From: Flavipsychrobacter sp.
GTDB lineage: Bacteria > Bacteroidota > Bacteroidia > Chitinophagales > Chitinophagaceae
Length of the DNA: 64,000 bases
Direction of reading: 5' to 3'
NCBI GenBank assembly: GCA_024508935.1
Contig: JANINW010000030.1
Span: forward strand, 87,455 to 151,454
Shown here in pieces: positions 296-28,757 of this stretch. The position numbers and the translations under genes were made by a program. Numbering within the stretch: the first letter of the stretch is position 1; each line of letters opens with the position of its first letter. The notes beneath the pieces were generated by a model that did no database searches, was not told the DNA's origin, and saw nothing but the letters and a program-made list of their open reading frames with translations.

Positions 296-360
296 TAAAA
301 TTCCGGTTAATATGGCTGGCGAAACATGACGGCAGTCAACAAAAAATTGATTGTTGTCAG
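296..360 (-). promoter_or_regulatory. Tandem FNR/CRP-type boxes and -7 element for ppsA
   Basis: Two perfect TGA-N6-TCA boxes lie at 327-338 (TGACGGCAGTCA) and 348-359 (TGATTGTTGTCA), centres 21 bp apart. Reading toward ppsA, the nearer centre is 29.5 bp from a weak -7 element GAATTTTA (303 to 296; the consensus is TAnnTTTG). The layout matches twelve other promoters in the window except for 21 bp instead of 22. Assignment to ppsA rests on that geometry. Confidence 0.6.
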
Positions 361-436
361 CCCACGGCCAGGCTATATAATTGCTACATAGCTGAGTAGA
401 AATACGTTACGCCTGCTTCTATAAAGACAGCGGAAG

Positions 437-501
437 GTGAGGTATGTCAAATAACAGCATGACCCAAATCAGCATTAATCGAATATAAGCTGTCTATTTT
501 G
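437..501 (+). promoter_or_regulatory. Tandem FNR/CRP-type boxes and -7 element for mlaEFD
   Basis: Perfect boxes at 438-449 (TGAGGTATGTCA) and 460-471 (TGACCCAAATCA) have centres exactly 22 bp apart. A -7 like TATTTTG begins at 495, which is 29.5 bp past the nearer centre and 23 bases before the mlaE start codon. The -7 is one base shorter than TAnnTTTG, as at the hsp20 promoter. Confidence 0.7.
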
Positions 502-523
502 CAGCTAAAATCAGGCACCACAA

Positions 524-1294
524 ATGGAAATACCCAAAGCAGGAAAGGTCTTTCTGACCGAGGCAGGCGCTTTATCCCGGTTTACCGGATGGTTCTTTCA
601 TGAAGCCTTCCGGCCAAGATATGAATGGCGGGAATTTATACGGCAGTGTTTTATGATAGGTTTTAAATCCCTGCCATTAGTGGCCCTCACCGGTTTTATT
701 ATGGGGCTTGTGCTGACCATGCAGCTAAGACCCACCCTGGTAGACTATGGCGTAGAAGCCAGGATACCGGCTATGGTGGCCCTTTCCATTGTGCGCGAAA
801 TAGGACCGGTAATAACCGCCTTGATATTTGCAGGCAAAATAGGCTCTGGTATAGGTGCGGAGCTCGGCTCTATGCGTGTTACGGAGCAAATTGATGCTAT
901 GGAAGTGTCCGGTACAAACCCATATAAATACCTGGTGGTAACAAGGGTGGCAGCTGCAACTGTTATGCTGCCTTTACTGGTCATCATGTCCGATGCCATC
1001 TCACTATACGGTGGTTACCTGGGTGTCAATATTTCTGCCATTACCAGCTTCGATCTTTATATAACGCAGGTATTCGACACATTACATTTCAGCGACCTAT
1101 TGCCTGCTTTTATAAAAACATTCTTCTTTGGCTTCGCGGTAGGCCTTGTGGGTTGCTACAAAGGATATAATTCGAGCAAAGGAACGGAAGGCGTGGGCAG
1201 ATCAGCAAACTCGGCGGTAGTATTATCGTCGCTGGCTGTGTTCATCATAGATCTATTGGCAGTACAAATAACGGATATATTAGGTATTAACTAA
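524..1294 (+). CDS. mlaE: MlaE-type ABC transporter permease
   Basis: A 256-residue integral membrane protein of the MlaE/YrbE (DUF140) family, the permease of the ABC system that moves phospholipids between inner and outer membrane. The family hallmark is visible around residues 88-125: REIGPVITALIFAGKIGSG, then GAELGSMRVTEQIDAMEVSG. About five hydrophobic segments follow an amphipathic N-terminus. It is the first gene of a tight operon: mlaF starts 3 bases after its stop codon, and mlaD 3 bases after mlaF. The operon sits under a tandem-box promoter, which suggests that its expression responds to the same signal as the cbb3 oxidase. Confidence 0.9.
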   Translation: MEIPKAGKVFLTEAGALSRFTGWFFHEAFRPRYEWREFIRQCFMIGFKSLPLVALTGFIMGLVLTMQLRPTLVDYGVEARIPAMVALSIVREIGPVITALIFAGKIGSGIGAELGSMRVTEQIDAMEVSGTNPYKYLVVTRVAAATVMLPLLVIMSDAISLYGGYLGVNISAITSFDLYITQVFDTLHFSDLLPAFIKTFFFGFAVGLVGCYKGYNSSKGTEGVGRSANSAVVLSSLAVFIIDLLAVQITDILGIN

Positions 1295-1296
1295 CA

Positions 1297-2046
1297 ATGG
1301 TTCAAACGGCAGAAAATAACAACCCGGTCATAACAATCACCAATCTCTGTAAAGCTTTTGGCAAAAACAGGGTATTGGACAATTTCAGTATCACCTTAGA
1401 CCAAAAGGAAAACGTGGTAGTGCTTGGCCGCTCAGGCTCAGGGAAATCAGTACTTATAAAATGTATCATTGGCCTGCTTGCTCCTGATTCAGGCAGCATT
1501 AACGTGTTGGGAGAAGAAATACTCACTATGGACCATGATACGCTTGATAAAATGCGTGTACGAATAGGTTTTCTTTTTCAGAGCAATGCCTTGTACGACT
1601 CTATGACCGTAAGGCAAAACCTAGAGTTCCCTATGCGACGGCACTGGATAGAAATTAGTCAAAAAGAGGCAGAGGACAGGGTTAAAGAAGTATTGGAGAA
1701 TGTAGGACTGGCTCATACTATAGACATGATGCCCTCAGAACTATCAGGCGGCATGCAAAAACGTATAGCACTGGCCCGTACACTCATCCTGAAACCCGAT
1801 ATTATACTTTATGATGAACCCACTGCTGGCCTGGACCCTGTAACAGGGAAAGAAATAAGTAATCTCATAAAACAAGTACGCGAAACCTACAATACATCAT
1901 CAATAATCATCTCACACGACATGAAATGCGTAAAAGCTACGGCAGACAGAATAGGTGTACTCATCAATGGCCAATGTTATGCACAGGGTAGTTATGCAGA
2001 CCTTGCTGCGTCGAATGATAAAAATGTAAACCAATTTTTTGAGTAA
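1297..2046 (+). CDS. mlaF: MlaF-type ABC transporter ATPase
   Basis: A 249-residue ABC ATPase. Walker A is GRSGSGKS (about residues 45-52), the signature is LSGGMQKR (about 149-156), Walker B and the D-loop are ILYDEPTAGLDP, and the switch histidine is in IISHD. The LSGGMQKR form and the pairing with MlaE and an MCE protein identify MlaF, which powers phospholipid transfer through MlaE. It lies between mlaE and mlaD with 2-base gaps, so the three are almost certainly translated from one mRNA. Confidence 0.9.
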   Translation: MVQTAENNNPVITITNLCKAFGKNRVLDNFSITLDQKENVVVLGRSGSGKSVLIKCIIGLLAPDSGSINVLGEEILTMDHDTLDKMRVRIGFLFQSNALYDSMTVRQNLEFPMRRHWIEISQKEAEDRVKEVLENVGLAHTIDMMPSELSGGMQKRIALARTLILKPDIILYDEPTAGLDPVTGKEISNLIKQVRETYNTSSIIISHDMKCVKATADRIGVLINGQCYAQGSYADLAASNDKNVNQFFE

Positions 2047-2048
2047 CT

Positions 2049-3026
2049 ATGGAAAAACAAATCACATCGAATATAAAACTGGGGCTGTTTGTCATCATAG
2101 GCTTGCTCATACTGGTTTTCAGTTTATATATGATAGGCAGGAACAAGAGCTTTTTTGGTTCCAATTTTGAAATAAAAGCCAGGTTCAAAAACGTAAATGG
2201 CCTTATGCGCGGCAACAATGTCCGTTTTTCAGGTATACAGGCCGGCACCGTAAAGGATATTGATATAATAAACGACACTACAATTGAGGTAGTACTTCTT
2301 ATTGATAAGAAGACCAAAGACTATATCCATAAAAATTCGATTGCATCAATAGGCTCCGAAGGGCTTATGGGCAATAAGATCATCAATATACTGCCCAATC
2401 CCGTACCTGCACCTGCTATAGAAGAAGGCGATATGCTGCTGACCCACAAAGAACTTAACGTAGATGATATGCTGGAGACACTGGACAAAACAAATAATAA
2501 TGTAGCTATCATATCCGAAGACCTGATAAGCACTGTGAAAAGGTTCAACAATAGCGCAGTAATATGGGGGTTGCTGGAAGATACAGCAGTATCTGAAAAC
2601 ATAAAATCATCATTGCAAAATATACACCAGGCAAGTAGTAACTTAAACAATATGTCGGCTGAACTGAATACAGCAGTTCATAACATTTCTCAAGGAAAAG
2701 GTTTATTGGGGGTACTGATGGAAGACCCTGAAACTGCTAACGATCTTAAGAACGCAATAAAACAGATAAATGATGTATCGCATAGCGCTAACGCGATTGC
2801 AGCAAAACTCAACAATCTTGTCTCGGCAACAGATACGAATATAAATAACGGCAAAGGTGTAATCACCACCCTGATGAAAGACACGGCTATTGTACAGCAA
2901 CTGCAAAACAGCCTAAATAATATAGAAAAAGGAACGGCAGCGTTTAATGAAGACATGGAAGCCCTGAAACATAATTTCCTGTTAAGAGGCTATTTCCGGA
3001 AGCAGGCTAAAAAAAATAAAAAGTAA
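2049..3026 (+). CDS. mlaD: MCE-family lipid-binding protein (MlaD-like)
   Basis: A 325-residue substrate-binding partner of MlaE/MlaF. One N-terminal membrane helix (about 9-29, LGLFVIIGLLILVFSLYMIG) anchors it to the inner membrane, followed by the MCE domain (about 38-115, with FKNVNGLMRGNNVRFSGIQ). The long helical C-terminus contains two related segments beginning GKGLLGVLMEDPE and GKGVITTLMKDT, and it ends FLLRGYFRKQAKKNKK. It is longer than E. coli MlaD (about 180 residues), as is usual in Bacteroidota, where the helical tail probably extends into the periplasm. It is the last gene of the operon. Confidence 0.85.
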   Translation: MEKQITSNIKLGLFVIIGLLILVFSLYMIGRNKSFFGSNFEIKARFKNVNGLMRGNNVRFSGIQAGTVKDIDIINDTTIEVVLLIDKKTKDYIHKNSIASIGSEGLMGNKIINILPNPVPAPAIEEGDMLLTHKELNVDDMLETLDKTNNNVAIISEDLISTVKRFNNSAVIWGLLEDTAVSENIKSSLQNIHQASSNLNNMSAELNTAVHNISQGKGLLGVLMEDPETANDLKNAIKQINDVSHSANAIAAKLNNLVSATDTNINNGKGVITTLMKDTAIVQQLQNSLNNIEKGTAAFNEDMEALKHNFLLRGYFRKQAKKNKK

Positions 3027-3035
3027 CCGGCTTGT

Positions 3036-3101
3036 GTGACAGGGGTCATAAGCCCGTCTGACGAGTATCAGCATTCGCATAATTGGCAATATGTACATTC
3101 G
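3036..3101 (+). promoter_or_regulatory. Tandem FNR/CRP-type boxes and -7 element for usp
   Basis: Perfect boxes at 3037-3048 (TGACAGGGGTCA) and 3059-3070 (TGACGAGTATCA), centres 22 bp apart. A -7 element TACATTCG starts at 3094, exactly 29.5 bp past the nearer centre. The universal stress gene starts at 3123. Confidence 0.7.
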
Positions 3102-3122
3102 TTCTTCAAATCGAACATAACT

Positions 3123-3944
3123 ATGAAAAAAGTACTTGCACTATTTGACGGGGAACATTTTTCAATGGGTGCTTTCAATTTTGCACGCCAGTTAAATGAA
3201 GCCCAACCCATCCTCCTGACAGGCGTTTTTCTGCCTTCTTTAGACTATACAAAAATATCTATGTACTACCTGGGCGGAATGGTTGGCCCTGTATACGCAC
3301 CTGGCGTGGAAGCAGAACCGGGTATGATAGACAGAAACATACAGACATTTAAAGACCTATGCGTAAAACACGGCATAGAATGCCGGGTACATAGCGTAAT
3401 AGACGGGCCCATACTGGAAAGTATTGCTAAAGAAACCAGGTATGCAGACGTGCTACTTTTAAGCAGCGAGCTTTTTTACAGCAATTTTGGGGAGACATCA
3501 CAAAAAGAATACCTGGAAGACACTATGCATAATGCCGAATGCCCGGTAATAGTAATACCGGAACACTACAATTTCCCACAAAGCATTATTATGGCATATG
3601 ATGGTAGCAAAGCATCGGTATTTGCCATAAAACAATTTGCTTATCTCTTCCCTGAACTTTCAGGAACAAGCACATTGATCGTTTATGCTTCTGAAAAAGA
3701 AAATGAATTCCCCGATCTGTCTTACATTGAAGAATTTGCAGCAAGGCATTTTCAAGACTTATCCTTCTTTAAACTGGATGCAGAGGCCAGGAAATACTTT
3801 AGTACCTGGATAACCGACAAAGGCGACCCGCTGTTGGTAACTGGCGCATATAGCCGCTCATTTTTGTCAGGGTTCTTTAAAAAGAGTTTTGCTGCCGAAG
3901 TAATAGCTGAACATAAACTGCCGGTATTTATAGCACATACCTGA
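3123..3944 (+). CDS. Universal stress protein with two Usp domains
   Basis: A 273-residue cytoplasmic protein with two tandem Usp folds. The first starts MKKVLALFDGEHFSMGAFNFA and the second near residue 154 with SIIMAYDGSKASVFAIKQFA. Duplicated Usp proteins of this size are common in Bacteroidota and bind ATP or act as stress chaperones. I start it at the ATG at 3123, because an upstream in-frame ATG at 3036 would place the tandem regulatory boxes inside the coding region and the extra residues look unlike a Usp N-terminus. The promoter matches that of the cbb3 operon, in line with known induction of Usp proteins under low oxygen in other bacteria. Confidence 0.85.
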   Translation: MKKVLALFDGEHFSMGAFNFARQLNEAQPILLTGVFLPSLDYTKISMYYLGGMVGPVYAPGVEAEPGMIDRNIQTFKDLCVKHGIECRVHSVIDGPILESIAKETRYADVLLLSSELFYSNFGETSQKEYLEDTMHNAECPVIVIPEHYNFPQSIIMAYDGSKASVFAIKQFAYLFPELSGTSTLIVYASEKENEFPDLSYIEEFAARHFQDLSFFKLDAEARKYFSTWITDKGDPLLVTGAYSRSFLSGFFKKSFAAEVIAEHKLPVFIAHT

Positions 3945-4000
3945 TAAATAAACACTTTCGGGCACAGGCTGTTATATTTCAGAGACATACATTCTTCGCA

Positions 4001-5011
4001 CTGGATTCTTTAACACATATCGCCATTGGCGCCTGTATAGGCGAAGCATATCTTGGGAAAAAGATACACAAGAAAGCTATGATATGGGGTGCGCTGGCAC
4101 AAAGTGCGCCAGATATTGATTTCCTGGCAGCTTTGTGGCTAAGTCCCGCAGAAAACCTGCTGGCGCATAGAGGCTTTACACATTCATTGCTGTTCATAGC
4201 CATTATTACACCCTTGTTTGCGCTATCCGCAATGCGGCTGCACAGACCACACAACATACCGTTAAAGAAATGGCTGTTCTTTTTTGGCACACAAGGCCTG
4301 ATACATATAGGACTGGACGGCTTTAATGCTTATGGTGTAGGCTGGCTGGAGCCATTCAGCCACCATCGCTTTTCCTTTAATGTACTTTTTGTTGCAGACC
4401 CGCTCTTTTCCATCTGGCCGGCTATAGCATTGGCAGCGCTCATTATACTCAGAACGGGCAATAAACAAAGAGTGCTCTGGTGGGTCTCCGGCCTGTTGGC
4501 GTCCATTATCTATATGATGTATGCCGTCTCCAACAAAATATATATAGACAGGGCGGTAGATAAGGCCCTAAAATATGACCATATACGTACAGAGCATGTA
4601 CTAACAACCCCTACCCCCTTCAACAACTGGCTATGGTATATAGTAGCCCCGGCACAAAAAGGATATTATATTGGGTACCGCTCAGTGTTCGACACACAAC
4701 CAGGTATTGATTTTCATTTTGTGGCACGCAATGATTCATTGCTAAAGAGCGTTGCTGACCATGAATCACTCCAGCACCTGCTTAAGTTTTCGCAAGGATA
4801 CTACACCGTATCATACGCTAATGACACATTATTGTTTAATGATCTCCGGTTCGGACAGATACTTGGCTGGAAATACCCCAACCAGAAGTTCACTTTCCAT
4901 TATTACCTCCAACACCCTGCAGACAATAAATTTGTAGTGCAGCGCGGCCGCTTTGAAAAATGGGATGCTCAGGAAATAAAAGATTTCCTTATCCGCATTA
5001 AGGGTTATTAA
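4001..5011 (+). CDS. YdjM-like membrane-bound metal-dependent hydrolase, probable CTG start
   Basis: Predicted 336-residue membrane protein of the YdjM/DUF457 family, whose members carry His/Asp clusters thought to bind metal. Visible motifs are THIAIGACIGEAYLG, APDIDFLA, HRGFTHSLLF and HIGLDGFNAYG, followed by several membrane helices and a soluble C-terminal half. The first ATG is at 4079, but it would remove the conserved LDSLTHIAIGACIGE block. That block begins with a CTG codon at 4001, exactly where relatives have Met-Asp-Ser. No ATG, GTG or TTG occurs in frame between the upstream stop and 4001, so a CTG start is inferred. Its 3' end overlaps the convergent cls gene by 14 bp. The biological role is unknown. 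Confidence 0.75.
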   Translation: MDSLTHIAIGACIGEAYLGKKIHKKAMIWGALAQSAPDIDFLAALWLSPAENLLAHRGFTHSLLFIAIITPLFALSAMRLHRPHNIPLKKWLFFFGTQGLIHIGLDGFNAYGVGWLEPFSHHRFSFNVLFVADPLFSIWPAIALAALIILRTGNKQRVLWWVSGLLASIIYMMYAVSNKIYIDRAVDKALKYDHIRTEHVLTTPTPFNNWLWYIVAPAQKGYYIGYRSVFDTQPGIDFHFVARNDSLLKSVADHESLQHLLKFSQGYYTVSYANDTLLFNDLRFGQILGWKYPNQKFTFHYYLQHPADNKFVVQRGRFEKWDAQEIKDFLIRIKGY

Positions 5012-6197
5012 ATGGCTTGTCTTTTTTGAAATAGAACGTAAACAAGTATAAGATCACCTTTATCACCTCATAACACAAATGCTGCCAGAGTTGTTTTATG
5101 CGGCTGGTTGTAGCCAGGTAATTTTCCATTGTTATCTCCAGGCAGTCAGTAGCAATCATTTTTTCAAGCATAGCGTCTACATCTGTAACAAAGGGCTTGC
5201 CCCGCACATCCAGGTTCAGTTCTATGCTTGCGTATTCGCTTATATTATTTACATTATACGACCCTATGGTCATTCTCTTACTGTCTGACGTGGCCACTTT
5301 AGCATGTAGGACAGTTTTTTGGTATTCAAACAGCCGGATATTATTCTGCAATACCCAACGGTATAAAAAGCGTTCGGCATGTTTGGCTATCATTACATCA
5401 GATGGGCCAGCCATTACTATTTTAATAGACACGCCTCTTTTTACAGCAGCAGCCATCAATTTCCTGAATTTCCAACCTGGCAAAAAATAACTGCAAACAA
5501 TCACAATACTATCCTGGGCATTGGCAAACATATCAGCATAAGTTCGCCATACCTGGCTTTTGCGCTTTACCCAGTCATTCATGCGCACCCGCACAGAGGT
5601 GAGCTCCTGCGCCTGTACATCTAAAACAGGGGCGTCTTTTATCTCGGGCAACTTGCATAATTGCGGACTGTAGCTGTCCCATGTTTTACAGCATACAGCA
5701 TTCAACTCTGCTGCTACCGGGCCTTTTACGTACAAGGCCATATCAAACCATGGCACCAGGTGGTCATTACCCTTATACCGCTCAGAGATATTAATGCCTC
5801 CCACCATTGCTTCTATACCATCAACCACCAAAACCTTATAGTGCAGGCGCCGGCCAAAGTAAAAACGAGAGCTTTTGAACAATGGCTCAAACCAGGCAAA
5901 ATGAACACCGACATCTTTCAGCCGGCTTACAAAAGACCGGGATAAATTTTGGGACGCATATCCATCAACCAATAAATAGACCGACACACCTTTTAGCGCA
6001 GCCTGTACCAGCAAATCTGCAATACGTGTACCTGTTTCGTCTTCCTCAAAAATGTAAACCTGTAAATGGATATAATACCTGGCAGAGTGTATTAGCTTTT
6101 CTAACAGATCAAAATATTCCTGCCCTCCCAATACCAATCTTGCTTCGTTCAGCGAATATGCCGCGTGATTTGTTTTCATTTTTGTAACGGCTGGCAT
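4998..6197 (-). CDS. cls: Cardiolipin synthase / phospholipase D-like protein
   Basis: A 399-residue protein with two HKD phosphatidyltransferase motifs: HYKVLVVDGIEAMVGGIN (about residues 121-138) and HAKVATSDSKRMTIGSYN (about 302-319). The pair forms one active site through the two histidines. It lacks the two N-terminal membrane helices of ClsA and so resembles ClsB-type enzymes. The C-terminus is hydrophobic (VIKVILYLFTFYF) and may be a membrane anchor. It would make cardiolipin from phosphatidylglycerol or phosphatidylethanolamine. It is the last gene of a five-gene operon (DUF4342, 53-aa protein, 159-aa membrane protein, AI-2E permease, cls) with gaps of 10-24 bp. Confidence 0.85.
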   Translation of the reverse strand: MPAVTKMKTNHAAYSLNEARLVLGGQEYFDLLEKLIHSARYYIHLQVYIFEEDETGTRIADLLVQAALKGVSVYLLVDGYASQNLSRSFVSRLKDVGVHFAWFEPLFKSSRFYFGRRLHYKVLVVDGIEAMVGGINISERYKGNDHLVPWFDMALYVKGPVAAELNAVCCKTWDSYSPQLCKLPEIKDAPVLDVQAQELTSVRVRMNDWVKRKSQVWRTYADMFANAQDSIVIVCSYFLPGWKFRKLMAAAVKRGVSIKIVMAGPSDVMIAKHAERFLYRWVLQNNIRLFEYQKTVLHAKVATSDSKRMTIGSYNVNNISEYASIELNLDVRGKPFVTDVDAMLEKMIATDCLEITMENYLATTSRIKQLWQHLCYEVIKVILYLFTFYFKKDKPFNNP

Positions 6198-6214
6198 TGG
6201 TTTTTATCTGTTTT

Positions 6215-7264: not shown

Positions 7265-7288
7265 GGTTCTTAGCCTTAATAATTATTC

Positions 7289-7768: not shown

Positions 7769-7778
7769 TGCAGCATGA

Positions 7779-7940: not shown

Positions 7941-7950
7941 AGTACAAGAT

Positions 7951-8206: not shown

Positions 8207-8272
8207 TAAAAATCCTTGAAATACGCGAGCCAGCGCATGAGGATGGTCATGCATAAAAATGAATTTGGTCAG
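8207..8272 (-). promoter_or_regulatory. Tandem FNR/CRP-type boxes for the DUF4342-cls operon
   Basis: Perfect boxes at 8238-8249 (TGAGGATGGTCA, extended to a GCATGA...TCATGC palindrome at 8235-8252) and 8260-8271 (TGAATTTGGTCA), centres 22 bp apart. Reading minus, the nearer centre is 29.5 bp from GATTTTTA (8214 to 8207), a poor -7 that differs from TAnnTTTG at its first and last bases, as at ppsA. A weak -7 suggests strong dependence on an activator. Confidence 0.65.
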
Positions 8273-9565: not shown

Positions 9566-9569
9566 GGTT

Positions 9570-9635
9570 CAAATCTATCCATGGTATACATATTTTGTAA
9601 TGATGCGAACCCGTAAATCATATGATTTCCATCAT
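9570..9635 (-). promoter_or_regulatory. FNR/CRP-type boxes and -7 element for the L,D-transpeptidase
   Basis: The distal box at 9623-9634 (TGATTTCCATCA) is perfect. The proximal one at 9601-9612 (TGATGCGAACCC) has one intact half. Centres are 22 bp apart. The -7 element TAGATTTG (9577 to 9570, minus strand) matches TAnnTTTG fully and starts 29.5 bp from the nearer centre. Confidence 0.65.
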
Positions 9636-9655: not shown

Positions 9656-9721
9656 TTGATTAATCTCATGAGCGCAAATGACAGTCATCACCTGATAAAT
9701 TCAATCAGCCTCATATTTTTG
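9656..9721 (+). promoter_or_regulatory. Tandem FNR/CRP-type boxes and -7 element for the coiled-coil / CoA-transferase pair
   Basis: Perfect boxes at 9657-9668 (TGATTAATCTCA) and 9679-9690 (TGACAGTCATCA), centres 22 bp apart. A consensus -7 TATTTTTG starts at 9714, exactly 29.5 bp past the nearer centre. The 127-aa gene begins at 9746. Confidence 0.75.
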
Positions 9722-12877: not shown

Positions 12878-12943
12878 CAAAACTATATTGTTGACTAACA
12901 GATTAAAATGACCCAAGTCAGTTGTATAGCTGTTTTACATTAC
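12878..12943 (-). promoter_or_regulatory. FNR/CRP-type boxes and -7 element for the DUF2892 gene
   Basis: The proximal box at 12909-12920 (TGACCCAAGTCA) is perfect. The distal one at 12931-12942 (TGTTTTACATTA) has one mismatch in each half. Centres are 22 bp apart. The -7 TAGTTTTG (12885 to 12878, minus strand) matches the consensus and starts 29.5 bp from the nearer centre. Confidence 0.6.
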
Positions 12944-16940: not shown

Positions 16941-19088
16941 TTAATTGTTTGAGGCTGTTGTAGCTTTTTGTTCCAGCTTAATATCTGTTCCCATACGTTG
17001 CAGGTATGCGATCAGCGCGATGATCTCCCTGTTGCTCTTTATCTCGATCTTGTCGCCTGCCAGGTTTTGTTTAATAGATTCCGCCTGCTTCATCAACTCT
17101 ACGTTAGCTACTTTGTCAAACCCTTCAGGATAAGGCACACCCAGCGTTTGCATAGCACGTATCTTGGCACCCATCACCGCTGTATCTATGTCATTCTCAA
17201 ACAGCCATGGGTAAGAAGGCATTATAGAACCCGGAGACATACTGGATGGCTCGTACATGTGGTTGAAGTGCCAGCTATTCGGGTATTTACCACCTATCCT
17301 TGCCAGGTCCGGACCGGTACGTTTACTACCCCATTGGAATGGGTGATCATATACGAATTCACCGGCTTTGGAATATTCACCATAACGCGCTACCTCGCTG
17401 CGGAATGGCCGTACCATCTGGCTATGGCAGGTATAACAACCTTCACGCACATATATATCACGTCCCTGCAGTTCAAGCGGTGTATAAGGTTTTACACTGC
17501 TGATAGTCGGGATATTTGATTTTACCAGGAAGGTTGGAACGATCTCGATCAAACCACCGATACCTACTACAATAAGGCTTAACACCATCATCTGCATTGG
17601 CCTGCGTTCTATCCAGCGGTGCCAGTGGCTGCCGCTGTGCTCTACATATGTTTTTGCCAGAGGTGCAGCTTCAGCAGCTTCATCGTTTACTGCTTTACCG
17701 GCCCTTATTGTTTTAATAAGGTTGTAAGTCATCATGATAGCACCCAACAGGTATAATGTACCACCTATACTGCGCATCATGTAGAAAGGACGCATTTGTG
17801 TAACTGTTTCCAGGAACTGGTATTTTAGTTGTCCTTCGGGGGTAAACTCTTTCCATGCAAGGCTTTGCATGAAACCTGCCCAGTACATTGGTACGGCATA
17901 GAATACAATACCCAGTGTACCTATCCAGAAGTGCCAGTTAGCCAGTTTCTGAGAGAACAGGTTTGTTTTAAATATTCTTGGTATCAGCCAGTACAGTACA
18001 CCAAATGTCAGGAAGCCATTCCAGCCGAGCGCACCTACGTGCACGTGCGCAATGGTCCAGTCTGTAAAGTGGCTGATGGCATTTACATTTTTCAGGCTCA
18101 GCATAGGTCCTTCGAAAGTGGCCATACCGTATGCAGTTACTGCTACCACTATGAATTTCAGAACGGGGTCTTCACGTACTTTATCCCATGCACCACGCAG
18201 TGTCAGCAAACCGTTCAGCATACCACCCCATGATGGCGCTATCAGCATCACAGAGAATACAGTACCTAATGATTGTGCCCAGTCAGGCAGGGCTGTATAT
18301 AACAGGTGGTGCGGACCGGCCCATATATATAAGAATATCAGCGCCCAGAAGTGTATAATAGATAAACGGTAAGAGTATACAGGGCGATTAGCTATTTTGG
18401 GCAGAAAGTAGTACATAACACCCAGGTAAGGTGTAGTAAGGAAGAACGCAACCGCGTTGTGACCGTACCACCATTGTACCAGCGCATCCTGCACGCCTGC
18501 ATACCATGAGTAAGATTTCATCCATGTAAATGGTATCTCCCACGAGTTAACAATATGCAGCATGGCTACCGTAACGAAAGTGGCTATGTAAAACCATATA
18601 GCTACATACAAGTGGCGTTCGCGGCGCTTGATAATGGTACCGAACATATTGATACCAAATGTTACCCATACCAGTGTAATAAGTATATCAATCGGCCATT
18701 CCAGCTCTGCATATTCCTTACCGGTAGTATAGCCGGCCAGGAGGCTTACCGCCGCACATACGATGATGAGCTGCCAGCCCCAAAAATGCAGTTTACTAAG
18801 GGCATCGCTGAACATCCTGGCTTTACACAGGCGCTGCAGCGAGTAGTATACGCCCATGAATATACCGTTACCCACAAAGGCAAAGATCACCGCATTGGTA
18901 TGCACAGGACGTACACGACCAAACGAGGTGGCTGCCGTATTAAGGTTCAATACGGGGAACACAAGTTGAAGCGCGGCCAGCAAACCGACCAGCATACCTA
19001 CCAATCCCCATAAAATGGTAGCGTATGCAAACCATTTGACAATCTTATTGTCGTAATAGAATTTTTCTGTTTGCAATGTATTATCCAT
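16941..19088 (-). CDS. ccoNO: cbb3-type cytochrome c oxidase, fused subunits I and II (CcoNO)
   Basis: A 715-residue fusion. Residues 1 to about 480 are the haem-copper subunit CcoN with about twelve helices and the ligand histidines in WWYGHNAVAFFLT, WAGPHHLLYT and FTDWTIAHVHVGALGW. Residues about 510-715 are the monohaem cytochrome CcoO, anchored by one helix, with CYTCHSQMVRP (about 551) and MSPGSIMPSYPWLF. The fused form is characteristic of Bacteroidota; in Proteobacteria these are two genes. It catalyses high-affinity O2 reduction coupled to proton pumping. Confidence 0.95.
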   Translation of the reverse strand: MDNTLQTEKFYYDNKIVKWFAYATILWGLVGMLVGLLAALQLVFPVLNLNTAATSFGRVRPVHTNAVIFAFVGNGIFMGVYYSLQRLCKARMFSDALSKLHFWGWQLIIVCAAVSLLAGYTTGKEYAELEWPIDILITLVWVTFGINMFGTIIKRRERHLYVAIWFYIATFVTVAMLHIVNSWEIPFTWMKSYSWYAGVQDALVQWWYGHNAVAFFLTTPYLGVMYYFLPKIANRPVYSYRLSIIHFWALIFLYIWAGPHHLLYTALPDWAQSLGTVFSVMLIAPSWGGMLNGLLTLRGAWDKVREDPVLKFIVVAVTAYGMATFEGPMLSLKNVNAISHFTDWTIAHVHVGALGWNGFLTFGVLYWLIPRIFKTNLFSQKLANWHFWIGTLGIVFYAVPMYWAGFMQSLAWKEFTPEGQLKYQFLETVTQMRPFYMMRSIGGTLYLLGAIMMTYNLIKTIRAGKAVNDEAAEAAPLAKTYVEHSGSHWHRWIERRPMQMMVLSLIVVGIGGLIEIVPTFLVKSNIPTISSVKPYTPLELQGRDIYVREGCYTCHSQMVRPFRSEVARYGEYSKAGEFVYDHPFQWGSKRTGPDLARIGGKYPNSWHFNHMYEPSSMSPGSIMPSYPWLFENDIDTAVMGAKIRAMQTLGVPYPEGFDKVANVELMKQAESIKQNLAGDKIEIKSNREIIALIAYLQRMGTDIKLEQKATTASNN

Positions 19089-19287: not shown

Positions 19288-19353
19288 CAAAACTACTTTC
19301 AGCCCGTTGACTGTTCTATGACACCGCTCAAGCGGAGAGATGATTATAATCAT
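19288..19353 (-). promoter_or_regulatory. Tandem FNR/CRP-type boxes and -7 element for the cbb3 oxidase operon
   Basis: Perfect boxes at 19319-19330 (TGACACCGCTCA) and 19341-19352 (TGATTATAATCA, inside the perfect palindrome ATGATTATAATCAT), centres 22 bp apart. The -7 TAGTTTTG (19295 to 19288, minus strand) starts 29.5 bp from the nearer centre, which puts the boxes near -41 and -63, the usual positions for an FNR-type activator. FNR/FixK control of cbb3 genes is well known in Proteobacteria. Confidence 0.8.
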
Positions 19354-22345: not shown

Positions 22346-22358
22346 GAATCATTTTTTA

Positions 22359-22424
22359 CGAAATTATTTTAGGAAGGACAGCCGGGATATGACCATAGGT
22401 AAGCAAAGGCATGATCTTCGTCAT
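22359..22424 (-). promoter_or_regulatory. FNR/CRP-type boxes and -7 element for the 181-aa gene and ccoI
   Basis: The distal box at 22412-22423 (TGATCTTCGTCA) is perfect and lies in an extended palindrome GGCATGA-N6-TCATGCC. The proximal one at 22390-22401 (TGACCATAGGTA) keeps one half. Centres are 22 bp apart. The -7 TAATTTCG (22366 to 22359, minus strand) starts 29.5 bp from the nearer centre. The extended palindrome could also act as a terminator for the gene ending at 22465. Confidence 0.6.
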
Positions 22425-22464
22425 GCCCTTGCTATTTGTTTTGTTTGGTTGTTTTGTTTGTTGC

Positions 22465-23877: not shown

Positions 23878-23897
23878 ACAATTAAGATTTGAAGAAC

Positions 23898-23963
23898 CAA
23901 AAGTAGTATGGCCTTACCGGGAGGGTAATGATGGGCGTCATTACCCTGTATGATTGTCATTAG
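23898..23963 (-). promoter_or_regulatory. FNR/CRP-type boxes and -7 element for the persulfide dioxygenase-like gene
   Basis: The proximal box at 23929-23940 (TGATGGGCGTCA) is perfect and extends to the palindrome GGGTAATGA-N6-TCATTACCC (23923-23946). The distal box at 23951-23962 (TGATTGTCATTA) has one mismatch. Centres are 22 bp apart. The -7 TACTTTTG (23905 to 23898, minus strand) is consensus and starts 29.5 bp from the nearer centre. Confidence 0.7.
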
Positions 23964-24022
23964 CAGGGCTGCTACATAACTTTGCCATCCATTACCTTTG
24001 CGCTCATTGTAAAAAACGGTGT

Positions 24023-25264
24023 ATGAAATACTGGAAAAAGATATCACATACGGAACAAGACAGGATCATTACAGAAGCACTTAGCCAGAATATAGATTAC
24101 AGAAAAAATGTATCGTTGGGGCTGCCTGCCAGCCGGCTTGATGAAACCGTATTTTATGACCAGGCACCGTTTTTGAAAGACGCACCTTTATTGCGCGCGT
24201 ATGTTCAAAACCCTAACCATATCGGGTGCCATACGCTTGGCGATTCTGAAGCTTATTTTCGCGGCACCCAGTTGCTGGAAACAGAAGTAATAGAACTGCT
24301 TAGCACCGATGTACTGAAAGCAGCCCCCGGCACCTGCGATGGCTATGTAGCAGCCGGTGGTACAGAAGCCAATATACAGGCAGCGTGGGTATACCGCAAT
24401 TATTTTATCAATGAAATGAATGCCAGGCCCGATGAAATTGCATTATTCGGATCGGCAGATACACATTATTCTATAGCCAAAGCAGCCAACTTGCTGCAAT
24501 TAAAATGGTATAGTATACCTGTCAATGACAATACAAGAGTCATCATCTCCGAAGAGCTGGGCAATATTATAGCACACGCCAAGCAACAGGGCATAAAATA
24601 CGCTGTCATCATATCCAATATGGCTACTACCATGTTTGGCAGTGTAGATGACCCTATGACTTATGTTCATGCATTTCAAAAAAGCGAAATGCCCTTCAAG
24701 CTGCACCTTGACGGTGCTTTCGGTGGTTTTATATATCCGATAAGCCATCCGGAAAGCGATGTGAATTTTGCAAATGAGCATGTATCATCTGTAACGCTTG
24801 ACGCCCATAAAATGCTGCAGGCTCCTTATGGCACAGGTATTTTCATTATCAGGAAGGGATTGATGGAACAGGTGTATACTAAAGAAGCCCAATATGTAAA
24901 TGGCATGGACATTACACTTAGCGGCAGCCGTTCGGGTGCTAATGCTATTGCCATATGGATGATATTAATGACCTACGGGCCACATGGCTGGTTTGAGAAA
25001 ATAAATAAACTACTCTATAGGACAGATTGGCTCTGCAAACAACTGGACAATATGGGTATTGTCTACTACCGCTACCCGAAAATGAATATTGTAACCATGC
25101 GTGCCAATAATATACCGCATACCCTGGCAGAGAAATTTGGCCTGGTGCCCGATTCCCACGAAGCTGATCCAGCCTGGTATAAAATAGTAGTGATGGACCA
25201 CGTAGAGGTTGAACACCTGGAGCAATTTATTGAGGACTTAAACAATATATTAAGTCTTAAGTAG
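24023..25264 (+). CDS. Pyridoxal-phosphate-dependent decarboxylase (group II type)
   Basis: A 413-residue fold-type I PLP enzyme, cytoplasmic. GTEANIQAAWVYRNYF binds the cofactor phosphate region, LHLDGAFGGFIYP carries the Asp that pairs with the pyridine nitrogen, and TLDAHKMLQAPYGTG contains the Schiff-base lysine. This fits group II decarboxylases (glutamate, histidine, aromatic amino acids) or related aspartate decarboxylases; the substrate cannot be fixed. The ATG at 24023 is preferred to one at 23954, which lies in the promoter region. Two possible -7 elements exist (TAACTTTG at 23977, TACCTTTG at 23993), but neither is at the standard distance from the boxes upstream. Confidence 0.85.
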   Translation: MKYWKKISHTEQDRIITEALSQNIDYRKNVSLGLPASRLDETVFYDQAPFLKDAPLLRAYVQNPNHIGCHTLGDSEAYFRGTQLLETEVIELLSTDVLKAAPGTCDGYVAAGGTEANIQAAWVYRNYFINEMNARPDEIALFGSADTHYSIAKAANLLQLKWYSIPVNDNTRVIISEELGNIIAHAKQQGIKYAVIISNMATTMFGSVDDPMTYVHAFQKSEMPFKLHLDGAFGGFIYPISHPESDVNFANEHVSSVTLDAHKMLQAPYGTGIFIIRKGLMEQVYTKEAQYVNGMDITLSGSRSGANAIAIWMILMTYGPHGWFEKINKLLYRTDWLCKQLDNMGIVYYRYPKMNIVTMRANNIPHTLAEKFGLVPDSHEADPAWYKIVVMDHVEVEHLEQFIEDLNNILSLK

Positions 25265-25329
25265 ACCTCTTTACAATTCGTGTTTATCTAATTATCTTTA
25301 TCTTGGCTTTTTCGTAAGCCTGTATACTC

Positions 25330-26514
25330 ATGCCAAACACGCACCTGGAATACGAAGCATTATTCAACAATGCTTCGATTGGTATTATTACAGTTAATGG
25401 TAAGGGCGAAATAGTCCTGATCAATGATTTTGCATTAAAGCAATTCGATTATGATTCTGCAAAAGAATTATTAGGATCAAAAATAGAGGTCCTTATCCCG
25501 TCCCGGTACAAAGAGCGGCATACTTCTCACAGGTCAAATTATATAGGCCATAACCCACATAGCCGGCCTATGGGCCTGGGTTTAGACCTGTATGGAAAGA
25601 AGAAAGGAGGTATAGAATTTCCGGTAGAGGTAAGCTTAAGTACATATAAAATTGGCGAAGAAACCTATGCGCTGGCTTTTGTAAGCGATATTTCGGTACG
25701 TAAGGAATCTGAAAATGCTTTGGTGCAGCTTAATGCCCAACTCGAACAAAAGGTAGAAGAGCGCACCCAATCGCTGGCAGATGCGCTGGCTAAGGAGAAA
25801 GAACTAAACGAACTAAAGTCCAGGTTTGTCTCTATGGCTTCTCATGAATTCCGTACGCCGCTAAGCACTATCCTATCCTCCCTGTACCTAATAACCAAAT
25901 ATGACACCACAGAAGACCAACCTAAACGCGAAAAACATATTACCCGTTCAATAGCATCGGTAAATATGCTTACCGATATTTTGAATGACTTCCTGTCTGT
26001 TGGCAAAATTGAAGAAGGAAAGATACAGGTGAGATTATCAAATTTCGATATAAAAGCCAGTATCAATGCTACCATAAATGAACTGAAAGACATAGCCAAA
26101 CCAGGCCAGACTATTGAATATGAGCATTATGGCGATACAGAAGTGATATTGGATATTTCTTTGTTTAAGCATATTGTGATGAACCTGGTATCCAATGCCA
26201 TCAAATTCTCACCAGAGAATAGTGCCATCCGGGTTACCTCTTCAAATAATAATAGAGAATTGTCACTCATTGTGCAGGATAGCGGCATAGGTATACCGGA
26301 AGAGGATCAGCAGCACTTGTTCGAACGATTCTTCAGGGCTTCCAATGTGACCAGTATACAGGGTACCGGCCTTGGTTTGCATATTGTAAGTAAATATGTA
26401 GATTTGATGAACGGCACCATAGCCTGCAGCAGCCAGTACGGCAAGGGCACCGCCTTTACAATTAACTTTAAATTTTCAAATACCACCCCCGATGAAGAAA
26501 GTACTACTCATTGA
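25330..26514 (+). CDS. Sensor histidine kinase with FixL-like PAS domain
   Basis: A 394-residue soluble kinase without membrane helices. A PAS domain (about 5-125) is followed by a short coiled coil (128-162), the dimerisation box with MASHEFRTPLST (His172) and an ATPase domain with the N box (NLVSNAIKFSPE), DSGIGIPEEDQ and GTGLGLHIV. In the PAS domain, RYKERHTSHRSNY and RPMGLGLDLYGKK align with the FixL haem pocket: His64 falls at FixL His200, while FixL Arg220 is replaced by Leu85. It may therefore sense O2, NO or redox, though related PAS domains do not all bind haem. It overlaps the next gene by 23 bp, which indicates a cognate pair. Confidence 0.88.
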   Translation: MPNTHLEYEALFNNASIGIITVNGKGEIVLINDFALKQFDYDSAKELLGSKIEVLIPSRYKERHTSHRSNYIGHNPHSRPMGLGLDLYGKKKGGIEFPVEVSLSTYKIGEETYALAFVSDISVRKESENALVQLNAQLEQKVEERTQSLADALAKEKELNELKSRFVSMASHEFRTPLSTILSSLYLITKYDTTEDQPKREKHITRSIASVNMLTDILNDFLSVGKIEEGKIQVRLSNFDIKASINATINELKDIAKPGQTIEYEHYGDTEVILDISLFKHIVMNLVSNAIKFSPENSAIRVTSSNNNRELSLIVQDSGIGIPEEDQQHLFERFFRASNVTSIQGTGLGLHIVSKYVDLMNGTIACSSQYGKGTAFTINFKFSNTTPDEESTTH

Positions 26515-27550
26515 AGACAACGATGACATCAGGGAAAATACAGCCGAGATATTAGAGCTTTCCAATTACCAGGTGTACAAAGCTGCAAATGGTAAAGAAG
26601 GGGTAGAACAGGCTATTTCTCATAAGCCCGATCTTATAATTTGCGACATTATGATGCCCGTACTGGACGGCTATGGTGTGTTGCATATGATCCATAAAAA
26701 CCCGGAACTACAGCATATTCCATTTATATTTCTTACAGCCAAGGCCGAACGGGTGGAAATAAGGAAAGGTATGGAGCTGGGGGCCGATGATTATATCACC
26801 AAACCATTTAATGGCACCGAATTGCTGAATGCCATTGAAGTCAGGCTGAAAAAATCGGAACAGCTAAGCCAAACAATGTCGTCGGGCCTTACCGGGCTGA
26901 ATACATTGCTTGATATAGCCACAGAGGGCAAATCTTTGGAATCATTAACTGAAGACCGCTCTACCAATAAATATAAAAAAAAGCAGGTCATTTATTCTGA
27001 AGGCAACCATCCATCCCGCTTGTTCTATGTTTTATCTGGCAAGGTACGCACCTTTAAAATGAATGACGACGGGAAAGAATTAGTGGTTGGACTATATAAC
27101 GAAGGAGATTTCCTGGGCCATATTGCTTTGCTCGAAGGAGGTACATATAAAGACACAGCAGAAGCCCTTGCCGATACCGAGCTGGCTATTATACCTAAAA
27201 GCGATTTTGAAGCACTAATAAATAATAATCCCGTAGTAGCTCAGAAACTGATACAATTGTTGGCAAGAAATATTACAGAAATGGAGCAGCAGTTGCTGAA
27301 TCTTGCATACAGTTCGCTCCGCAAAAAGGTGGCCGAAGCACTGGTAGCACTTTATAAGAAGTATAACCCCAAAGGGGAAGAAGGCTTTGCTATAGATCTT
27401 AGCCGGGAAAACCTTGCTGCGATTGCCGGTACAGCTAAAGAATCTATGATACGCACCCTGGGCGATTTCAAAGATGAGAAACTGATTGATATTAAAGACG
27501 GGGCGATCGTTGTTTTAAACATTAAAAAATTAGAGAACCTGATCAATTAG
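26492..27550 (+). CDS. Response regulator: receiver domain fused to CRP/FNR-type DNA-binding module
   Basis: A 352-residue hybrid. Residues 1-120 are a receiver with the phospho-acceptor Asp52 (DLIICDIMMP), Thr82 and Lys104. Residues about 155-270 are a cyclic-nucleotide-type sensor fold (YSEGNHPSRLFYVLSGKVR, GDFLGHIALLEGG). Residues about 280-350 are a CRP-type winged helix. The recognition helix contains K-E-S-M-I-R: its Glu and Arg match Glu181/Arg185 of CRP and Glu209/Arg213 of FNR, which read TGA. No N-terminal Fe-S cysteines are present, so control should come through phosphorylation. It is the best candidate to bind the TGA-N6-TCA boxes in this window. Confidence 0.88.
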   Translation: MKKVLLIEDNDDIRENTAEILELSNYQVYKAANGKEGVEQAISHKPDLIICDIMMPVLDGYGVLHMIHKNPELQHIPFIFLTAKAERVEIRKGMELGADDYITKPFNGTELLNAIEVRLKKSEQLSQTMSSGLTGLNTLLDIATEGKSLESLTEDRSTNKYKKKQVIYSEGNHPSRLFYVLSGKVRTFKMNDDGKELVVGLYNEGDFLGHIALLEGGTYKDTAEALADTELAIIPKSDFEALINNNPVVAQKLIQLLARNITEMEQQLLNLAYSSLRKKVAEALVALYKKYNPKGEEGFAIDLSRENLAAIAGTAKESMIRTLGDFKDEKLIDIKDGAIVVLNIKKLENLIN

Positions 27551-27552
27551 TA

Positions 27553-27915
27553 TCAGGAGGCTTTCATAAGATAATTATTGAAATCGAACCTGAGTTTGCT
27601 GAACTCCTGTTCCAGTTTTTTTACCTCGTCCCTCAATTTATTTTGATTACCGGCAAGCAGCATAGGTACCGTATCTCCGCATTGCTTTAGCTTATTTATA
27701 TGCTCCACTACATCTTTGCGGTATAAAGCGAAGGTGATATCCTTGGTTATAAGCATATTCTGGTAATCCTCAATTTCACTAATAGCATCCTTGCTGGAGA
27801 AACGTATCATTTCAGCCAACCTGCTTTTCATAGCCACGTTCTCAGCCTGTAGAAAATCCAATAATCTTTTCCACGAACTGCACTCTTCTATTAGCTGTTC
27901 AATCTTCTTTAACAT
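27553..27915 (-). CDS. Hypothetical coiled-coil protein, 120 aa (paralogue of the 127-aa protein)
   Basis: A soluble helical protein without signal or membrane segments. It begins MLKKIEQLIEECSSWKRLLD and has heptad-like stretches (NKLRDEVKKLEQEFSKLRFD). Alignment by eye with the protein at 9746-10129 gives shared positions W..LDF, K-x-RL-x-E, I-x-x-x-E-x-Y-x-N and a terminal FN, plus similar length. Both genes have the same regulated promoter, and this one is next to the presumed regulator, ending 2 bases from its stop in convergent orientation. The function is unknown. Confidence 0.78.
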   Translation of the reverse strand: MLKKIEQLIEECSSWKRLLDFLQAENVAMKSRLAEMIRFSSKDAISEIEDYQNMLITKDITFALYRKDVVEHINKLKQCGDTVPMLLAGNQNKLRDEVKKLEQEFSKLRFDFNNYLMKAS

Positions 27916-27976
27916 GCCTGTTATATATCAATAGTGATCTACCCCCGGAAATATCTTTTACCGGAGATAGATGGTT

Positions 27977-28042
27977 CAAAAATATTATTTGCGTCCCGCT
28001 GTCCGGGTAACCATTATCAACCAAAAAGATGATTGCCGTCAT
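27977..28042 (-). promoter_or_regulatory. FNR/CRP-type boxes and -7 element for the 120-aa gene
   Basis: The distal box at 28030-28041 (TGATTGCCGTCA) is perfect. The proximal one at 28008-28019 (TAACCATTATCA) has one mismatch. Centres are 22 bp apart. The -7 TATTTTTG (27984 to 27977, minus strand) is consensus and starts 29.5 bp from the nearer centre. Confidence 0.7.
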
Positions 28043-28052
28043 TCATTTAGCT

Positions 28053-28607
28053 TTAACGCTCCTTGGGAGAGCTGTTTTTTATAGTATTTTTTATCTCATC
28101 CATCATTTCTACCTGTACATTTTGCAACTCAAACAAGGTTTTCATTTGCTCTGCTATCAGCAGATCCAGTTTTTGGTGTACATTTCTTATCTCTATTTCA
28201 GCTTTCAGATTCACCAGGTAGTCATTCACGGCCCTTTCGCGGTCCTTATCTTCCTTCCTGTTCTGGCTCATGAGTATGATAGGCGCCTGTATAGCTGCCA
28301 GGGTAGACAATAACAGATTCAGTAATATGAAGGGATATGGGTCGAAATGGGGACCCTTTGGAACGATATTGAATACTATCCAAAGGACCATAAAGACAAA
28401 AAAACTAAATATAAAATTCCAACTCCCACCAAATGAGGCCACCTTATCTGCTACCCTATGGCTAAATGACACATTTTTATCCTCGAAAGAGTACAATTTC
28501 TGCGAGATCAATTTCTCTTCCTCCAGTGCATTGAGGACGATCTTATTGAGCTTCTGCAAATGCTCGCTTTCCGTAAACAATAGATCTGCCATGTTATTCT
28601 TCGCCAT
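28053..28607 (-). CDS. DUF1003 membrane protein
   Basis: A 184-residue protein of the DUF1003 family. Two membrane helices lie near 62-82 (WNFIFSFFVFMVLWIVFNIV) and 92-116 (PFILLNLLLSTLAAIQAPIIL). Between and after them are the family motifs ADKVASFGGSW, FDPYPFILLN and MSQNRKEDKDR, and the C-terminal tail is a charged coiled coil. The function is unknown. It is monocistronic and divergent from hsp20, with its own tandem-box promoter. Confidence 0.88.
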   Translation of the reverse strand: MAKNNMADLLFTESEHLQKLNKIVLNALEEEKLISQKLYSFEDKNVSFSHRVADKVASFGGSWNFIFSFFVFMVLWIVFNIVPKGPHFDPYPFILLNLLLSTLAAIQAPIILMSQNRKEDKDRERAVNDYLVNLKAEIEIRNVHQKLDLLIAEQMKTLFELQNVQVEMMDEIKNTIKNSSPKER

Positions 28608-28613
28608 ACATTA

Positions 28614-28679
28614 CAAAAGTATATACCCGGTATGCCCTTATAAATGACCTTCATGTGTGGGAATACTGATTTACATCAC
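28614..28679 (-). promoter_or_regulatory. FNR/CRP-type boxes and -7 element for DUF1003
   Basis: The distal box at 28667-28678 (TGATTTACATCA) is perfect. The proximal one at 28645-28656 (TGACCTTCATGT) keeps one half. Centres are 22 bp apart. The -7 TACTTTTG (28621 to 28614, minus strand) is consensus and starts 29.5 bp from the nearer centre. Confidence 0.65.
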
Positions 28680-28691
28680 CATTTCTCAGAC

Positions 28692-28757
28692 CTACTTTCT
28701 GTCACGGTATACATTGATTTCCATCATAGATTGTGAGACTTAAGCTTGGTACTTTGC
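28692..28757 (+). promoter_or_regulatory. FNR/CRP-type boxes and -7 element for hsp20
   Basis: The proximal box at 28715-28726 (TGATTTCCATCA, preceded by T as in the FNR consensus TTGAT-N4-ATCAA) is perfect. The distal one at 28693-28704 (TACTTTCTGTCA) keeps one half. Centres are 22 bp apart. A short -7 TACTTTG begins at 28750, 29.5 bp past the nearer centre, 24 bases before the gene. Confidence 0.6.

Follow-up and report, generated by a model that had tools for sequence, protein, structure and literature searches.

Thirteen promoters with paired TGA-N6-TCA boxes in one register to the -7 element in a Flavipsychrobacter genome, and a REC-CRP response regulator as their likely activator

The locus

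The stretch of DNA analysed here, referred to as the window, comprises 64,000 nucleotides of a Flavipsychrobacter sp. contig (JANINW010000030.1, positions 87,455 to 151,454). Its first 29 kb contain thirteen promoters that share a single layout in which two boxes of the form TGA-N6-TCA precede a -7 element related to TAnnTTTG. The same region encodes a response regulator, REC-CRP, in which a receiver domain is joined to a CRP-type DNA-binding module, and a PAS histidine kinase. The promoters and the two regulatory genes are given below in window coordinates. Fractions denote matches to the six defined positions of a box or of the -7 element, and the distal box is the one further from the -7 element.

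296..359, minus strand: ppsA promoter; two perfect boxes, spacing 21; -7 GAATTTTA (4/6); the downstream open reading frame (ORF) of 801 amino acids (aa) has pyruvate phosphate dikinase and PEP-utiliser domains
438..502, plus strand: mlaE-ABC-mlaD promoter; two perfect boxes, spacing 22; -7 TATTTTGC at 495-502 (TAnnTTGY type); the operon genes match MlaE, ABC_tran and MlaD in Pfam
3037..3101, plus strand: 'usp' promoter; two perfect boxes; -7 TACATTCG (5/6)
8207..8271, minus strand: DUF4342 promoter; two perfect boxes; -7 GATTTTTA (4/6)
9570..9634, minus strand: L,D-transpeptidase (YkuD; LDT) promoter; distal box perfect, proximal 4/6; -7 TAGATTTG (6/6)
9657..9721, plus strand: promoter of a 127-aa gene and a CoA-transferase; two perfect boxes; -7 TATTTTTG (6/6)
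12878..12942, minus strand: promoter of a YgaP-like transmembrane protein; distal box 4/6, proximal perfect; -7 TAGTTTTG
19288..19352, minus strand: ccoNO operon promoter; two perfect boxes; -7 TAGTTTTG (6/6)
22359..22423, minus strand: promoter of a 181-aa gene and a metal-transporting ATPase; distal box perfect, proximal 4/6; -7 TAATTTCG (5/6)
23898..23962, minus strand: promoter of an MBL-rhodanese gene; distal box 5/6, proximal perfect; -7 TACTTTTG
25330..26514, plus strand: PAS histidine kinase gene with a FixL-like PAS domain, overlapping the REC-CRP gene (Pfam)
26492..27550, plus strand: REC-CRP response regulator gene, 352 aa; receiver, cNMP-binding-like fold and Crp-type helix-turn-helix (HTH) (Pfam)
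27977..28041, minus strand: promoter of a 120-aa gene; distal box perfect, proximal 5/6; -7 TATTTTTG
28614..28678, minus strand: promoter of a DUF1003 gene; distal box perfect, proximal 4/6; -7 TACTTTTG
28693..28757, plus strand: promoter of an HSP20 gene; distal box 4/6, proximal perfect; -7 TACTTTGC (TAnnTTGY type)

The name 'usp' is taken from the preliminary description of the window; the match of this gene to the Pfam Usp family lies below the cut-off. The ccoNO operon encodes a CcoN-CcoO fusion at 16941-19088, a single protein of 715 aa (NF011053).

Spacing of the boxes and register of the -7 element

The window contains 30 perfect TGA-N6-TCA boxes. Of these, 23 are found in 1-29 kb, with 19 of the 23 falling within the thirteen promoters, the number given in the preliminary description. 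The seven perfect boxes in 29-64 kb all lie within listed ORFs; the preliminary description reported none by eye in the intergenic DNA of this part. Box centres are 22 bp apart at twelve promoters and 21 bp apart at ppsA. Both boxes are perfect at six promoters, five with a spacing of 22 and ppsA with 21, while the other seven pair one perfect box with a partner at the expected place that matches at 4/6 (LDT, YgaP-like, 181 aa, DUF1003 and HSP20) or 5/6 (MBL-rhodanese and 120 aa), again as first described.

The position of the -7 element was analysed by summing its match score at each distance past the proximal box over 14 rows, consisting of the thirteen promoters and the opposite direction of the pair at 23929. 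The sum reaches 70 of 84 at 23 nt past the proximal box, or 29.5 bp from the box centre, and ranges from 12 to 39 at 59 other distances. The common layout and the distance of 29.5 bp proposed from visual reading are thereby confirmed. At the pair centred on 23929, the -7 element is in register only on the minus side, toward the MBL-rhodanese gene, and there is none toward the divergent PLP (pyridoxal phosphate) decarboxylase. Compared to TAnnTTTG, the -7 element matches at 6/6 in seven of the promoters, at 5/6 in two (usp and 181 aa) and at 4/6 in four (ppsA, mla, DUF4342 and HSP20). The mla (495-502) and HSP20 (28750-28757) elements fit TAnnTTGY instead, with the register unchanged.

In the transcription start site map of Flavobacterium psychrophilum, as presented in the text of PMC9723704, TAnnTTTG occupies -12 to -5 and TAnnTTGY forms a separate motif class at the same position. 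Since the first base of the -7 element is at -12 in that organism, the register observed here would centre the two boxes at -41.5 and -63.5. All thirteen promoters have a -7 element of at least 4/6 at 29.5 bp from the proximal centre, which is the placement of a class II activator site.

Controls and the extent of the regulon

At spacing 22, the composite score reached 15/18 or more 13 times in 1-29 kb, covering 11 promoters (two pairs score in both directions; ppsA is missed with its spacing of 21, and HSP20 scores 14). The same threshold was reached nowhere in 29-64 kb or in the reversed window, and 0.08 occurrences are expected from 50 Markov sequences.

Within the 3.76-Mb genome there are 28 perfect pairs at spacings of 12-42. 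Fifteen have a spacing of 22 and the other 13 are scattered over 30 spacings; a reversed-pattern control over the same range yielded 3 pairs in total. The pair is thus not equally common at random positions genome-wide, an outcome that the preliminary description had named as one that would refute it. Ten perfect spacing-22 pairs lie outside the window, eight of which have a -7 element of at least 5/6 at the exact register on at least one strand. The exceptions are C7:35738, where the -7 element is displaced by one base, and C62:80491, which has none in register.

A search with the full 18-position promoter returned 39 matches with up to 3 mismatches versus 6 for the reversed control. With up to 2 mismatches, 27 matches representing 25 distinct pairs were found, and 10 of the 27 fall in the 29-kb stretch, compared to an expectation of 0.2 there; three of the thirteen window promoters are below this cut. 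Because the full promoter occurs at 25 sites in the genome, the regulon is larger than the thirteen promoters, which are its densest part. The thirteen-promoter regulon of the preliminary description is therefore real as a regulon and too small as an inventory. Outside the window, the predicted targets comprise, among others, a universal stress protein, a peroxiredoxin and an SDR oxidoreductase, as well as a baeRF protein that is release-factor-like and families with no assigned function.

Upstream of the window, at a distance of approximately 64-67 kb, the contig carries a second cluster of four regulon promoters, together with a universal stress protein (L037, G000:C30:17800-23000, and G000:C30:23650). 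The pair at L220 (G000:C93:19178) has a perfect -7 element in each direction and lies ahead of a baeRF family 3 protein; through this protein, the regulon may be connected to the control of ribosomes or translation. Short X or N stretches are present in the window genome (L040 and L239).

Conservation in other genomes

A collection of species genomes was scanned with an alignment of 28 REC-CRP proteins, and the best 80 of at least 586 confirmed relatives were retained, amounting to 1.38 Mb of sequence. All 80 loci contain REC-CRP by construction. They derive from Chitinophaga, Niastella, Sediminibacterium, Spirosoma, Rufibacter, Adhaeribacter, Emticicia and many metagenome bins. The loci contain 83 perfect pairs at spacing 22 and 57 distributed over 48 other spacings (12-60), with 5 pairs at 23, 2 at 21 and at most 4 at any other. 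Four control palindromes gave no peak at 22. A -7 element of at least 5/6 is found at 23 nt on 44.8% of 165 strand-sides and on no more than 3.6% at any of the other distances between 15 and 34. Such an element is present on at least one side of 67 of the 83 pairs; 3 more have TAnnTTGY, and 13 have neither.

From 156 promoters, the consensus is (A/C)TGA(T/C)-N4-(A/G)TCA(T/G), repeated at 22 bp and followed by the -7 element. The base before TGA is a T in only 0.12 of distal boxes and 0.24 of proximal ones (0.19 pooled), which rules out the FNR-type consensus TTGA-N6-TCAA. Consequently, the preliminary assignment of the boxes to the FNR/FixK type is correct in that they are FNR/FixK-like and in class II position, and incorrect with regard to the extended motif.

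Where the distal box is perfect and a -7 element is present, the proximal box matches at 4/6 or better at 132 of 147 sites; where the proximal box of a class II site is perfect, the distal box does so at 95 of 137. For sites with a perfect proximal box and a -7 element, the mean distal score is 4.42 at spacing 22, with no other spacing from 12 to 49 exceeding 2.29. Of the two boxes, the distal one is conserved better, with an information of 1.66-1.83 per core base versus 1.21-1.62 for the proximal one in a set selected on total score. Three perfect boxes in series at 22-bp steps were observed at L094 (G205:C5:324937-324992) and at G028:C2:2518584-2518639, as if three dimers could stack.

The downstream ORF matches a window protein at 68 of 157 promoters of the other loci. 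By locus, the matches were ccoNO at 14 (of 21 with a homologue), PAS kinase at 14 (a tally that may take in other kinases), metal ATPase at 11 (of 19), HSP20 at 9, usp at 7 (with a query protein that began at 3126, one codon after 3123) and the 120-aa gene at 4, followed by the 127-aa gene, the YgaP-like gene and REC-CRP itself at 2 each and the 181-aa gene at 1. The layout is thus conserved upstream of orthologues, which the preliminary description had proposed to check in related genomes.

The REC-CRP protein and its paralogues

The DNA-binding part of REC-CRP belongs to the CRP/FNR family (PF00027, E 1.4e-22; PF13545, E 1.5e-13). In the HTH, E317 and R321 are invariant in the 28 aligned proteins; from the role of their counterparts in CRP and FNR, we take these to be the residues that read TGA. 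The amino terminal part is a response regulator receiver (PF00072, E 6.9e-29) with E8, D9, D52 and K104 invariant in the same alignment. The protein has a single Cys, at position 51 in the receiver, and lacks the N-terminal Cys cluster of FNR proper. The CRP segment GELGLFEEGQERSA aligns to GHIALLEGGTYKDT in REC-CRP, where the Glu and Arg that contact cAMP in CRP are not kept. With one Cys only and the cAMP contacts not kept, sensing of cAMP or through an Fe-S cluster by REC-CRP itself is unsupported.

In a phylogenetic tree that takes in only 26 proteins lacking a receiver, the CRP modules of the 28 REC-CRP proteins are grouped on a single branch (100/99) that excludes these 26. Five CRP-family proteins were found in the window genome, namely REC-CRP and four others designated C2, C19, C62 and C97. 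The recognition helix of REC-CRP, AKESMIR (E-S-x-I-R), is similar to the GTATE(S/T)xIR of the FNR-like proteins described below for genomes without REC-CRP. C2 is the nearest to the FNR type, with the helix TTRETATR and a Lys where its relatives have the last Cys of the motif; it is placed within the FNR group on its own branch (100/99), with four N-terminal residues masked. The helices of C62 and C97 read TTRENVTR and SREVITR, respectively.

The PAS kinase

In 72 of the 80 loci, the end of a kinase ORF lies no more than 300 nt from the start of REC-CRP. Among PDB structures, FixL is the best match to the PAS domain of the window kinase (E 1e-11), and the haem His is aligned; it is kept in 61 of the 64 ungapped rows of a 73-row PAS alignment. 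The haem-His motif also occurs in PAS domains that are not known to bind haem. From the FixL-like PAS domain with its His, and from the cbb3 oxidase targets, we infer that oxygen is the signal. The kinases beside REC-CRP at L187, L195 and L214 have a FixL-like IGIGRE stretch in the PAS domain.

Co-occurrence of the layout with REC-CRP and FNR

Perfect pairs at spacing 22 were counted in 59 genomes, the window genome included. FNR-positive genomes were defined by at least 215 bits to the FNR of genome G053; G020, G034 and G042 were counted as such although the Cys pattern was not matched, and the FNR of G011 is outside the tree. Genomes with REC-CRP only average 5.22 pairs (n=27), those with both proteins 8.33 (n=12), those with FNR only 2.0 (n=6) and those with neither 0.71 (n=14), with 0.57 expected from other spacings. 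The role of REC-CRP as the activator, proposed in the preliminary description, is supported as likely by this contrast (5.22 versus 0.71 pairs). In a 247-genome sample of the phylum, REC-CRP (E <= 1e-60) was found in 38 genomes, every one in the class of the window. These average 3.68 pairs, compared to 0.61 in 23 members of the class that do not have it.

Full promoters were counted in 24 genomes hand-picked from the 59. With up to 2 mismatches there are 6-22 in six REC-CRP-only genomes (which hold 6 to 14 perfect pairs, above their group mean), 16-33 in five with both proteins, 1-8 in six with FNR only and 0-2 in seven that lack both. Over all 24 genomes, the reversed control gave 9.

FNR-only genomes thus carry the layout, and REC-CRP as its sole user is ruled out. 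In G006, G012, G053 and G205, where no REC-CRP was found, the layout adjoins cco genes, identified by FixS and ccoNO matches, and a gene for an FNR-like protein that has a GTATE(S/T)xIR helix and, in its N-terminal part, a Cys motif. Two of the genomes with an FNR-like protein and without REC-CRP belong to the genus of the window. The layout is present in G006 and G012 at the cco and MBL-rhodanese genes, and in G006 also at the homologue of the 181-aa gene. In these close relatives, the layout would be served by a different regulator lineage, and an exchange of regulators within the genus is possible. Genomes with only FNR showed no clear difference in the -1 base (36 versus 60 flank positions). 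Same-genus relatives with both regulators (L052/L053, G009) or FNR only (L096/L097, G012 and G006) have the layout upstream of cco and MBL-rhodanese genes.

Proposed mechanism and alternative explanations

The layout, its register, its conservation and its co-occurrence with REC-CRP are computational observations. They probably reflect a regulon activated by REC-CRP under the control of the FixL-like kinase, with two side-by-side dimers at -63.5 and -41.5 on sigma-ABfr promoters. The kinase (25330-26514) would sense low oxygen and phosphorylate Asp52 of REC-CRP, as the invariant receiver residues suggest. Phosphorylation would allow the CRP-type module to bind DNA, presumably as two adjacent dimers at once. 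The dimer at -41.5 would be a class II activator that contacts RNA polymerase and substitutes for the -33 element, and the abutting dimer at -63.5 would stabilise it and may contact the alpha subunit. Transcription would then start from the sigma-ABfr -7 element in one register. The predicted output is a microaerobic and stress programme comprising the cbb3 oxidase and its assembly, stress proteins, HSP20, a PEP synthase-like enzyme, MBL-rhodanese, CoA transferase and L,D-transpeptidase. At other sites in the genome, the programme would extend to a universal stress protein, a peroxiredoxin and an archaeo-eukaryotic release-factor-like protein. Where REC-CRP is missing from a relative, a stand-alone FNR-like protein with an N-terminal Cys motif accompanies the layout at the core cco genes. 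The chances are about even that one rigid grammar is read by both the Cys-motif FNR and phosphorylated REC-CRP, that the regulator was exchanged within the genus while the cco, MBL-rhodanese and, in one genome, 181-aa promoters stayed, and that cooperation between dimers is what activates.

Several observations weigh against activation by REC-CRP through paired sites. The average is only 0.8 pairs in ten REC-CRP genomes of weak similarity (bits < 300), and no pair is present in three of stronger similarity (G162, G237 and G253) or in 3 of the 39 REC-CRP genomes among the 59. Among 20 REC-CRP stretches of relatives, four have no promoter scoring 15 (L045, L054, L055 and L062), and four of 21 named loci have no full promoter in the 13-21 kb examined (Larkinella, Dyadobacter sediminis, Jiulongibacter and Arsenicibacter). 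Since genomes with only FNR carry the layout, co-occurrence alone cannot name the binding protein. The paralogue C19 (L105, G000:C19:222737-223357) has a VETVIR helix (E-T-V-I-R) and could also read TGA. With respect to the signal, the window kinase has N and L at the equivalents of FixL Arg206 and Arg220, the residues near bound oxygen, so that haem and oxygen binding are putative. Finally, of the 137 class II sites whose proximal box is perfect, 42 (about 31%) score 0-3 at the distal place and have no recognisable partner.

That chance or composition, amplified by the reading of many intergenic regions by eye, created the layout has next to no probability. One box is degenerate at seven promoters, and about 5% of background places match at 4/6 or better; however, the layout holds out of sample, both in the remainder of the genome and at 80 loci of other genomes, reversed and shuffled controls are near zero, and these together with the other-spacing and other-genome controls rule out a chance origin. 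It is also unlikely, to a much lesser degree, that a stand-alone CRP/FNR protein binds the promoters and REC-CRP is a mere neighbour. Such a reading draws on G006, G012, G053 and G205 with their FNR genes beside the layout and cco, on the average of 2.0 pairs in FNR-only genomes, and on the four other CRP-family genes of the window genome, among them C19 with its E-T-V-I-R helix. It does not account for the 5.22 pairs averaged by the 27 of 59 genomes that have REC-CRP and no such FNR. As for candidates within the window genome, C2 stands apart in its TTRETATR helix, its Lys in place of the last Cys and its own branch. C19 is unsupported as a general reader because its relatives (E <= 1e-25) occur in only 10 of the 59 genomes and are missing from several with the most pairs (G009, G014, G019, G034 and G037, with 14 to 18 each). 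On account of the co-occurrence, the helix comparison and this narrow distribution of C19, REC-CRP is the likely reader in the window organism.

Alternatively, function may reside in the proximal box alone, with the distal box a second site that is independent or competing and at which, for instance, another CRP-family protein represses. The 42 sites with no distal partner fit this account, as does the ability of upstream FNR sites to repress in E. coli. Lone boxes show a small -7 excess at the same register (34 versus about 9 at other distances). Thus, from the sites that lack a distal box and from the lone boxes, the tandem form is the rule and not the sole form; the strict double-site architecture first described is rigid in its spacing but not universal. 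Against an independent or competing distal box stand the base-exact spacing (83 pairs at 22, 2 at 21 and 5 at 23), the higher conservation of the distal box, read with the same caution about selection, and the 132 of 147 sites at which a perfect distal box and a -7 element predict a proximal one. On balance, a functional role of the proximal box alone is quite improbable.

Relation to known systems

In alphaproteobacteria, the FixL-FixJ-FixK cascade consists of a kinase, a response regulator and a CRP/FNR activator with cbb3 targets. The system described here likewise has a FixL-related PAS kinase, a receiver, a CRP/FNR-type activator, cbb3 targets and the class II position. It differs in that the sites are paired at 22 bp, the -7 element is of the sigma-ABfr and not the sigma-70 type, and the equivalents of FixL Arg206 and Arg220 are not kept. 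Because the receiver and the CRP module are a single protein, the FixJ and FixK steps collapse into one.

Tandem-bound FNR promoters of E. coli were reportedly treated by Barnard, Green and Busby in 2003. Like the FNR class II and tandem promoters of E. coli, the promoters here have a CRP/FNR-family box at -41.5 and a second site upstream. In E. coli, tandem sites are a feature of single promoters and differ in their spacing, whereas here one spacing and one register extend across a regulon and across families. The DosR/DosST dormancy regulon of Mycobacterium tuberculosis has a haem-type kinase, paired boxes, and universal stress and HSP20-like targets. It resembles the present system in these features and in its response regulator, and is a functional analogue only; the DNA-binding domain of DosR is of the NarL type and unrelated to that of REC-CRP.

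A further comparison is with the sigma-ABfr promoters of F. psychrophilum, where, according to the text of PMC9723704, TAnnTTTG and TAnnTTGY occupy the same place and a cbb3 oxidase is raised under oxygen limitation. The words Fnr and Crp are absent from the main text of that article, which describes no activator sites of the kind found in the window (PMC9723704). In the literature searched, which was limited to open-licence papers and is weak evidence of absence, there was no CRP/FNR regulon with a pair at one spacing and register, no described REC-CRP regulator, no layout common to Cys-motif FNR and REC-CRP, and no mapped activator of this kind for Chitinophagaceae and related families. The parts, being a FixL-like kinase, a receiver, a CRP/FNR module, a class II position and a sigma-ABfr -7 element, are known already. 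What looks new is the rigid double-site layout, together with its use by two lineages of regulators.

For Chitinophagaceae and related families, which are bacteria of soil and water, the layout provides a base-exact and testable rule for a low-oxygen and stress regulon. It makes regulons predictable from sequence and hints at how a class II activator may work at promoters of the -7 type. It also offers a natural case of one promoter layout used with two different sensing proteins. If the kinase is confirmed to bind haem, the system would represent a one-step version of the FixL-FixJ-FixK cascade.

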